Shown here in pieces: positions 1,955-21,662 of a stretch of 64,000 bases of DNA. The stretch's first letter is position 1. Each line of letters begins with the position of its first letter. Origin of the DNA: Hyperoplus lanceolatus (taxonomy: Eukaryota > Chordata > Actinopteri > Uranoscopiformes > Ammodytidae); assembly GCA_026929865.2 (NCBI GenBank), contig CM049417.1:21577501-21641500 (forward strand), given 5' to 3'. The position numbers were made by a program, and so were the translations under genes. The notes under the pieces are model-generated. The model saw nothing but the letters and a program-made list of their open reading frames with translations, ran no database searches and was not told where the DNA came from.

Positions 1955-4900
1955 TCACTCCTTACCATCCAACTCAAGGCAGATGTGCTGCAGGCTCATC
2001 CCGCGGAAAAGCACGCCCTCCTTCTCTCCGTAAAGAACGACACGACCCACGCGGCCCATCAGTGTGGGATCCCGTACGATAGTGGAACAGTTCTGGGTCA
2101 CGTGGTACTCTCGCTCCATGAATTCCTCCAGCCGTTTGGTAGCTACGGCCTGGCTGTCTCCCTCCTCTAATAGAAGCAGTTGAGTGAGTATTGCCACCTG
2201 CCGTCTCACACGCTTGGCTGTGAGCGCTCCGGCGTTCTTAGCCCCACTGGCCCGTGCCTGGTTTCTCAGGAGGTCCGTGCCCCTGAGCGGTGTGGCGGGG
2301 GAGTGATACGGCCGGGAGAAGACGTAAGGACTGTCCGGGTCCACACCCACATTGGGGCTGGTTTGAACGAGTAGGTCCAGACAGGACTCACAGTGTGGCG
2401 GGAGAATGAGCGGCTGGGTGCGACCGCGCTTGCCCAAAACGCCAGCCCGCGGGAGGTGACGGAGGACGTTGCGTTCAAAGGGGGACAGCAGGGCTTCCAT
2501 GCCAGAGGGGGGTATGTTGCCGGGGCTGGCCTGGGGCGTGTTGCGGTTGCGGTAGTCCTGGACAGTGAGCTTTGCAACCTCGCATTCCCGCTGGCGGTTG
2601 TAGAGGATGAGCAGGGACAGGCTGGAGTGGCAGAGCAGGCGCCAGGCCTCGGCAGAGTGAGGAGAGCGCGATAAAGAGAGGAAAGAGGCGTGCTGCTGCC
2701 GGCGCAGGTACAGGACCAAACACGAGAGGGAAGACAGCAGCGGGGACATGTGATGTCTGTGGCTATTAGAAATCAAAGACAGAGAGAGAGAGAGAGACAC
2801 AGGTAAACATTTCTTAAATAGCTGTTGAAGTCACAAAGCTACGCCAAAACCCAAAACATCACCAATGAATATCTCATTTGTAGGGATGGGCTTGACGCAT
2901 GAGTGATCGATTCCTTGACTTGTCTTCGTTCTAAATTAATTTGATCAGTAAACAAGTTCAAGGTTTCTTTTATTTTCTCACGTGTACTTTTATTTCAAAC
3001 ATCTGTGCACCAGCAGCCCAACATGTTATTCCAATCTCAATGCCCCTGTTTGGACAGCCAGAGGCTCAAGCAACAGAAGCACTTATCTATCTCTGCTGCA
3101 GTCAACGGCTCCGTGAAACCACAGTAATGCTACCTGAAGCTAAAACAAAACTTTAAAAAATGTTGCCCTCCGTCAGCTACAGCTCAGTGCAGCGAGGTCG
3201 GGAAGTGGTTTGTGGATCGAGTGGGTCGAGTTTAAAATATGCCAAGCAAAGTTAAGTTCACATAGGGCTATTAGTAGGCTACACTGAGTCAACTTAGCTT
3301 ATGTGAATAAAGAGGGAATGTGTCAGCTGTTTTTGGCGCTGCAAGACGCAGCTGTAATCCAAGCTAATAACAGGAATGCTTACTCAAGAGATGCTGCCTT
3401 TGATTTAGTACAATGTTTCAGGAATAATGAGCCACAGACTGAGCATTAGGCTCTGCGGTCTGACTAGTTCTGCTGTTTTGTTGTGTTTTTATATATTGAA
3501 ATAACACTGTTTGATTGACTTTTGTTTTGTAATATAAGTATTAATAGTACAGCGGATTAGCACAAGAATTGTGCACTTTTTGAGAAAAGCATGACATTTC
3601 TACCATGGTTAGTAGGGGAGAGTGGGGTGAGATGTGCCACTTTTTACTCAAAGTGATTTTAAAGTGAGGCCTTGACAGTTATGTCTCCAACTCAAATATG
3701 TAGGGGAGAACGGGGGAATCTGAGGCATCGGGTAATGTGAGCCACCCCCTGTATCTAGGCAACGGAAAACATTTTGTCATGTGAGATATATGTTTTCAAG
3801 CCCCTCTCATTTCCCCATGGCCCTGAAAGAGAGGACCTCATGGTGCTGTGGTAAGCATGTTTTTTTTCACCAAAATAGGTATTTTGCATGTAAAAGTAAA
3901 TTTTCTTGCTGTCAACTTAATCAACTGTTGTGCCAAAGCAAATGTATTCACGTAGAAAAACTTCTATCATACGTGTTGATGAACTACCAACATATAAAAA
4001 CCATGTGATGAAAGAAAAAGATTAGCCTGAAATGCTAAGAGAGGTAGTTTTTTCTCATATTGTGAGGCACAAGTTAAGTTGATTCTTAAACATATTTTAA
4101 TGTAATATTACATAACATATGTTTTATTTTTAATGTCATACACATTGTAGAAAATCCATCATGCCAAGGAAATACACCAGGAAGACGACCTGGGGCAACC
4201 ACACGGAAAGAGCACCTTTTCATCTTTCCCTGTAACCTTCAGGGCTGGAATGTAGAGTAGGCCTAGTTGTAGAGTATGACAGGCTGATGTTGTAATCCAG
4301 TTGGGTCTCCCCCTGTGTTCTGAGTCCCAGGCTGTTCTCGCTGGTTCTGATTTTCCTATGCTTTGACCCCCAGACACAAGCTGGCTCTAAGGGTCCTGTG
4401 TTCTGACCACCAGACAGTGTTCTAATCTAACTGGTTCTATCTTTCATTTGAATCTTATTAAAACCTATTGAATTATAATATGTTGTATTTGGTTTTGTTC
4501 AGAGTTACTTTCAAGTGTTTAGAAAATTAGCTTTGCTTAATTGACCAAACCCCATCATTCTTTTACTAGTCCGACATTAGTTCTGGAATGTGTGGCTAGC
4601 TTTCAGGATTCTAACTGTTACAATATGCGTTGTTATGGTAGTTTCAGAGTGGAAAAAGTAAGTGGATCTGGAATAAACTGTTTAAGGCGAGACACCCCAG
4701 GTGAATAGGGATTTTTTTTTAACTTATAGATATCATCATGAAACTTTGCCAGTTGATTACTGACACTAACACAATTATTTTTTGTATTACATGTTTTTCT
4801 TTAATATTTTATTAAATATGCAAATATGGCAATATTTAACCAATTATGCGTAAATTTGGGTAATTTTTCGAGAAAAAATTTGAGATGTTGGATAAAGCTA

Positions 4901-21662: not shown

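Follow-up and report, generated by a model that had tools for sequence, protein, structure and literature searches.

A fish host gene joining half a SET domain, a zinc finger and a tyrosine-recombinase-like domain, probably without catalytic activity

The 64,000-nucleotide stretch of Hyperoplus lanceolatus DNA analysed here (the window) holds six of the eight exons of a gene whose 926-aa product joins the C-terminal half of a SET domain, one C2H2-like finger and a domain that is probably tyrosine-recombinase-like. The explanation that we favour, and consider reasonably probable, is that it is a host protein encoded by one of a block-duplicated pair of genes, in which both enzymes are dead and which selection has kept as a nuclear adaptor. 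As predicted from its sequence, the product is most likely a non-catalytic chromatin- or DNA-binding host protein; since the SAM site and the nucleophile are missing, neither methylation nor recombination is expected of it.

The six window exons (minus strand, 21662-1966; Table 1) join in phase and without a stop, and all five intervening introns have GT-AG borders. A first-pass annotation had described an open, phase-consistent gene of six exons ending at position 1955; the phase and the open frame were found as described, but there are eight exons in all, two of them outside the window. Indeed, exon 6 ends at a splice donor (1966/1965) and the TGA at 1955 is intronic. We rejected this stop as the end of the gene because a GT is present at the aligned donor place in 13 of the 13 related exons examined (L019, L023, L028, L041 and L042 were not part of this check) and because two further exons fit the phase, at C23:21576459-21576256 (exon 7) and C23:21576040-21575796 (exon 8, which ends in TAG). 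The donor of exon 6 is of phase 1 and lies at the end of the homologous domain, as in the relatives examined. Exon 7 encodes a basic stretch, KKKGPGRPPRKKR, with a GRP-type motif. A reading as two separate genes was also rejected, since exons 5 and 6 are only about 0.46 kb apart in the copy of the gene found on C5 and since the finger and the recombinase-like domain stand within one open frame in several relatives.

Table 1. Features of the SET-recombinase-like gene, its neighbour and related loci (window positions unless a contig is named; A1, alignment described in the text).
Feature	Position	Strand	Evidence or remark
Exon 1, ATG start (MAETVRSPFDY...)	21571..21662	-	open frame, donor GTGAGT
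Exon 2 (GRKRKGTPVKV..., acidic)	20460..20569	-	GT-AG, in phase; C5 exon 68% identical
Exon 3	20170..20254	-	GT-AG, in phase; tblastn found no C5 counterpart
Exon 4, half SET	19881..20076	-	GT-AG, in phase; C5 85% identical over 48 codons
SET C-terminal half (PNCRIREV...GEEITVDYS)	19908..20012	-	PF00856 positions 71-105/105, E 6.5e-8
Exon 5, acidic/basic low-complexity linker and one C2H2-like finger	16628..17679	-	GT-AG, in phase; C5 46% identical
C2H2-like finger CPYCGRHYRSLARHLEKHH	17176..17232	-	C-x2-C-x9-H-x3/4-H; kept in C5 copy, seen in relatives
Intron 5, 13,865 bp, transposon remains	2763..16627	-	about 0.46 kb in C5 copy
Exon 6, recombinase-like domain	1966..2762	-	C5 74% identical; donor GATG/GTAAGG
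Arg I position, retained (R)	2588..2590	-	alignment A1
Hairpin Lys position, retained (K)	2429..2431	-	alignment A1
Arg II position, retained (R)	2204..2206	-	alignment A1
His III position, replaced by R (relatives, LGH)	2111..2113	-	alignment A1
Tyr nucleophile position, lost, S; A in C5 copy	2084..2086	-	alignment A1
Intron 6 start, holds the TGA mistaken for a stop	1955..1965	-	donor conservation and exons 7, 8
ZFP91-like exon	29695-30486	-	PDB match ZFP91 E 1.8e-40
Family locus near DUF3504/Phage_integrase match	C9:34.09/34.10 Mb; C2:1.160/1.164 Mb; C19:6.84-6.88 Mb; C11:8.60/8.65 Mb		

Intron 5 holds Copia-type remains in antisense orientation (10117-13430, plus strand; RVT_2, E 1.8e-24; rve, E 1.2e-5, below cut-off) and a DDE_3 fragment (14389-14943, minus strand, E 1.8e-14). 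A second DDE_3 fragment lies in intron 4 (18581-18802, minus strand, E 1.4e-5, below cut-off), and a short copy related to these fragments was seen by eye at 22417-22704; DDE_3 is a Tc1/mariner-type transposase. Between the ZFP91-like gene and the SET-recombinase-like gene there is a 128-aa open frame (25278-25664, minus strand, LIHCVILKEEEEWGELEGDYESMRKNVRLRLEHLL...), which had no Pfam match above cut-off and for which no counterpart was found in the C5 region, part of which is masked. At locus L010 a 600-aa open RVT_1 reverse transcriptase frame (2346-4145, minus strand, E 1.1e-42) lies downstream of the last exon. Rfam returned nothing at gathering scores on the window.

Looking at exon 4, the half SET domain with the motif GEEITVDYS that had been proposed beforehand was recovered: the Pfam SET profile matches the last 35 of its 105 positions only, and this C-terminal half carries the N..C and GEEI.-DY features. 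Its best solved relative is KMT2B (E 1.6e-4), one of the KMT2-type enzymes, and NCBIfam gave one weak match to the exon (E 0.033). The first half, with the G-x-G SAM-binding motif, was not found by tblastn with one relative's sequence in the window and 10 kb downstream. The single C2H2 finger also stood up to inspection (17232-17176), though with an unusual spacing. Classical C2H2 fingers are spaced C-x2-4-C-x12-H-x3-5-H; the x9 loop of the window finger is thus three residues shorter, and the C5 copy retains its Cys and His. Pfam finger models match it only below cut-off.

We then compared exon 6 with its relatives in an alignment of 18 rows (A1), from which L019, a near-copy of L016, and L042 were left out; the roles of residues were assigned by motif alignment only. 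Two arginines and the hairpin lysine are retained in the window gene and in the C5 copy, and in both the His is replaced by R, while the Tyr is replaced by S in the window gene and by A in the C5 copy. The absence of the box-II histidine and of the tyrosine nucleophile, already suspected at first sight, is therefore seen in both copies. Nine of the 16 other rows carry the full set, R, K, R, H and Y, in that order; among the rows that do not, two (L023, L041) are cut short and lack some catalytic columns. Exon 6 is 17-32% identical to these 16 further family rows. Of the 15 family ORFs, 10 show the ordered and spaced box I-II-III pattern, and shuffling 9 of these 15 ORFs reproduced it 4 times in 27,000; the pattern had been composed with knowledge of the family, whose members form one lineage with a common ancestor. 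The same three-box pattern matches only 2 of the 13 phage integrases and none of the 4 Crypton-like ORFs; the window gene matches box I only. A pattern of boxes II and III was present in 29 of 248 background ORFs, which by their first letters resemble family copies or phage integrases.

Profile comparisons gave a fainter signal. Searches of Pfam, PHROGs, NCBIfam and the PDB with exon 6 were empty even at E up to 10, seven family ORFs searched against Pfam gave no recombinase model and nothing over cut-off, and an AlphaFold model of exon 6, made from the single sequence without alignment, had a pLDDT of 35. With hhalign the family was compared with 13 phage integrases (P 0.33) and with 4 Crypton-like ORFs from the same genome as the window (P 0.4); the values were 0.19 and 0.18 when the window pair was added to the family and 0.13 and 0.48 for the window pair alone, which gave 0.067 and 0.25 in a later phage-integrase comparison. 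When the columns of the family profile were shuffled, the true score was equalled by 2 of 200 shuffles against the 13 phage integrases and by 5 of 500 against 25, a weak signal, and the catalytic-region profile against the 12 newer integrases alone was not significant (135 of 500). In the alignments with the 13-, 25- and 12-integrase sets, the LR..A and LGH motifs of family and phage proteins fall into register, as does the Lys hairpin in the first two. One phage locus without an annotated gene (L057) was left out of the integrase set. As a positive control, the Crypton-like ORFs were aligned to the same phage integrases, with values of 1.1e-5 to 2.5e-7; the method is therefore able to see a real relative. 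The proposal of a recombinase domain thus stood in its ordered motif, clear in 9 of 16 relatives, and not in its profiles, where no model matched and scores were weak. We therefore use the label recombinase-like rather than recombinase or Crypton, as the motif order is clear but the profile comparison is weak. The exon-6 domain is probably tyrosine-recombinase-like, a reading from motif order with weak profile support (p about 0.01 at best).

The more precise assignment to a Crypton-type domain, made in the first-pass annotation, was not supported. Whole-genome searches at E up to 10 with PF12012 (DUF3504) and PF00589 (Phage_integrase) led to 36 and 13 places, respectively, none of which is a family locus. 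Against the 4 Crypton-like ORFs, 65 of 200 column shuffles of the family profile equalled the true score and the reversed profile scored above it. The genome probably does contain real Crypton-like elements, namely two ORFs of 394 and 397 aa that look alike by eye (L044 and L045, on C9 and C20), which match DUF3504 (1.7e-12 and 2.8e-13) and, weakly and below cut-off, Phage_integrase (0.05 and 0.07). Four of the 35 family loci have a DUF3504 or Phage_integrase match less than 50 kb away (5 pairs, compared with 0.11 expected, a post hoc count that took 26 hand-picked match places from the PF12012 and PF00589 lists). No profile match links these families.

To which family the gene belongs was seen in the whole genome (806.7 Mb, 527 contigs). 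Exon 6 gave 23 matches, comprising itself, the 74% identical copy at C5:21.42 Mb (E 6.5e-119) and 21 others at 27-37% identity (5.9e-24 for the next relative), several of which sit in long open frames. A 714-aa relative used as query gave at least 70 matches, which were grouped into about 35 loci by joining matches within 8 kb, some of these loci being small fragments. Among 15 family ORFs, visual inspection showed that most of the longer ones combine the recombinase-like domain in a single frame with an acidic part, two finger-like motifs and a stretch that looks helical. Both SET halves are present upstream at three loci (C6:36.7, C8:3.2 and C19:6.87 Mb), and at C22:24.18 Mb the SET C half is present and the DNA is 99% identical over the stretch holding the first half. 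The joined SET halves of the C6 gene match KMT5A best among solved structures (1.5e-20), ahead of KMT2A (7.6e-13). The C-terminal domain of exon 8, for which there was no Pfam match, was found in 11 of the 19 fetched loci (the window, C5 and 9 of the 14 loci L016-L029) and not in L040-L042, where the flank is short. The window gene is a member of this SET-finger-recombinase-like family, with which it shares the homologous domain, the phase-1 donor and the C-terminal exon. A viral contig set and a genome contig set were scanned and no relative was found in them.

Several family copies are broken, and some are recent duplicates (C8/C12, 96.8% identical over 6.9 kb; C6/C6, 94.9% over 7.7 kb; C6/C22, 96.7-99.0% over three stretches). 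The intact pair L016/L018 is under constraint (dN/dS 0.11), and the pair L018/L028 (C6:36.7 and C6:32.3 Mb), of which one partner is broken, is neutral (1.07 over 206 codons). About the first 3.4 kb of L016, L018 and L019 (C8, C6 and C12) consists of a repeat array, whose unit measures roughly 630-700 bp as estimated from match offsets; it separates the SET exons from the finger/recombinase-like exon, and the C8/C12 duplication starts inside it. Transposition of the whole unit was considered as the source of the C8/C12 pair and dropped, the shared 6.9 kb beginning in the repeat array and omitting the C8 SET exons; for the same reason repeat-mediated duplication is as likely.

The C5 copy has exons 2, 4, 5, 6, 7 and 8 in the same order; exons 1 and 3 were not found in the fetched stretch, 12.5 kb of which is masked and may hide the first SET half there. 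The best other ZFP91-like match in the genome (C5:21377535-21377963) lies about 37 kb before the C5 copy, with order and orientation as in the window. With two linked genes in the same order and orientation, the window/C5 pair is a block duplication, plausibly the teleost one. We measured dN/dS by the Nei-Gojobori method on this one paralogous pair, with dS of 0.65-2.4 and thus partly saturated (1.4-1.7 in exons 4 and 6). The ratio was 0.05 for the half SET (48 codons), 0.14 for exon 6 (263 codons), 0.24 for both exon 7 (68 codons) and exon 8 (81 codons), and 0.37 for exon 5 (296 codons), where constraint on the linkers is weaker. Nonsynonymous change is suppressed in exon 6 (Fisher test on rounded counts, p 1.8e-33) and in the half SET (p 1.3e-11). 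The remaining parts of the window gene are thus under purifying selection, as had been supposed from the clean frame across the 13.9-kb intron 5, in which transposon frames were indeed found. Since both copies are without the His and the Tyr and show only the C half of SET, these losses most simply predate the duplication. In a midpoint-rooted tree of 16 rows (2 of the 18 rows, shorter than 200 aa, were omitted) the window gene and the C5 copy share a long branch of their own (1.7, support 100/100); the program warned of a long branch, L024, joined to the window pair and of an odd composition in L003.

How firmly the exon-6 domain can be called recombinase-like depends on the weight given to profiles and to motifs. 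It could be a separate, undescribed domain in which the likeness of R, K, LR..AT and LGH-x8-Y to the recombinase boxes is accidental: neither the window domain nor the seven family ORFs found a recombinase model in Pfam, the hhalign values and the comparison with the 12 further integrases were not significant, and the Crypton-like ORFs do align to the same phage sets. Box order and spacing in the family ORFs are nevertheless rare in shuffles, albeit for a pattern composed with the family in view, the alignments with phage integrases fall into register at the expected boxes, and few shuffles reach the score against the 13 and 25 integrases; we thus regard a chance resemblance as unlikely, though to be taken seriously.

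Two other explanations concern the fate of the gene. That it is a decaying transposon or a pseudogene copy and no host gene would agree with a multi-locus family that has recent copies (95-99% identical DNA), several of them broken, and with the neutral C6 pair. Against this, the window and C5 copies form a deep separate pair with intact frames, conserved splice sites, a linked ZFP91-like neighbour and dN/dS of 0.05-0.37, and we give this explanation hardly any credence. Some activity might also survive: the SET remnant could pair with a different SET protein to make up a methyltransferase in trans, or DNA could be cleaved by another residue of the recombinase-like domain. The very strong constraint on the half SET and the retention of Arg I, Lys and Arg II are in its favour, but no first SET half was found at the locus and the His and the Tyr are both replaced in both copies, so that it seems very improbable; to our knowledge, a split SET domain has no precedent.

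We thus return to a host protein whose two enzymes are dead. Its SET remnant and recombinase-like domain are the parts held hardest by selection and are therefore probably used for binding. The protein would be a nuclear adaptor, a location suggested by its anatomy, in which three parts may bind DNA or chromatin, namely the finger, the recombinase-like fold and, in exon 7, the basic GRP-type motif; partners may dock on the SET remnant and on the C-terminal domain. A wider proposal, which we put forward tentatively and hold to be rather doubtful, is that in this fish family one protein holds both a complete methyltransferase, KMT5A-like and of H4K20 type, and a complete tyrosine recombinase, which would couple DNA cutting to local chromatin marking, and that the window pair lost both and has had a regulatory role since the ancient block duplication.

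In the members scanned, no Pfam model matched the recombinase-like or the C-terminal domain over cut-off, so most of the family is probably overlooked by routine annotation. It is presumably covered by automatically named groups of fish proteins such as "SET domain-containing" or "Tyr recombinase domain-containing", and may thus be catalogued yet unstudied. Among the matches listed in the open-licence literature (e.g. PMC9341512, PMC9945428), no description of a SET-recombinase fusion family in fishes was found. We also considered whether the family is connected with setdm of gibel carp and dropped the idea, as excerpts of PMC6211105 and PMC8448357 offered no sequence to set beside the family.

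SETMAR is a well-known case of a SET domain captured with a DNA transposase, which is of the DDE/D type. The present locus points to an independent case beside it, in which a SET domain and a recombinase-like domain are joined in a family with about 35 loci in one genome, from seemingly intact to broken. The window pair is an end point, with selection holding both broken domains, and thus allows asking what purpose a dead SET half and a dead recombinase-like domain serve. One intact family member has a SET domain whose nearest solved structure is KMT5A (SETD8), whereas the window gene has the C-terminal half only, with KMT2B as its best structural match. An excerpt of PMC6326780 describes SETMAR as a SET methylase fused to the Hsmar1 transposase and active as a methylase; the likeness lies in a SET methyltransferase combined with an enzyme of DNA recombination whose present use is to bind DNA (PMC6326780). 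SETMAR differs in its active methylase and its DDE/D-type partner; in the window gene the SET is KMT5A-like, the partner is tyrosine-recombinase-like and both active sites are lost. The DUF3504 genes KCTD1, KIAA1958, QRICH1, ZMYM2/3/4 and WOC are, in the portion of PMC3212892 consulted, domesticated Crypton recombinases, that is, host genes with a recombinase-derived domain without catalytic residues, many with extra DNA-binding domains. Going by the same portion, these genes lost the second Arg, whereas the window gene retains Arg II, and no SET fusion occurs among them as described (PMC3212892); nor did PF12012 reach any family locus in the genome. SETMAR is thus the closest analogue in kind, and the DUF3504 genes are the closest in fate.
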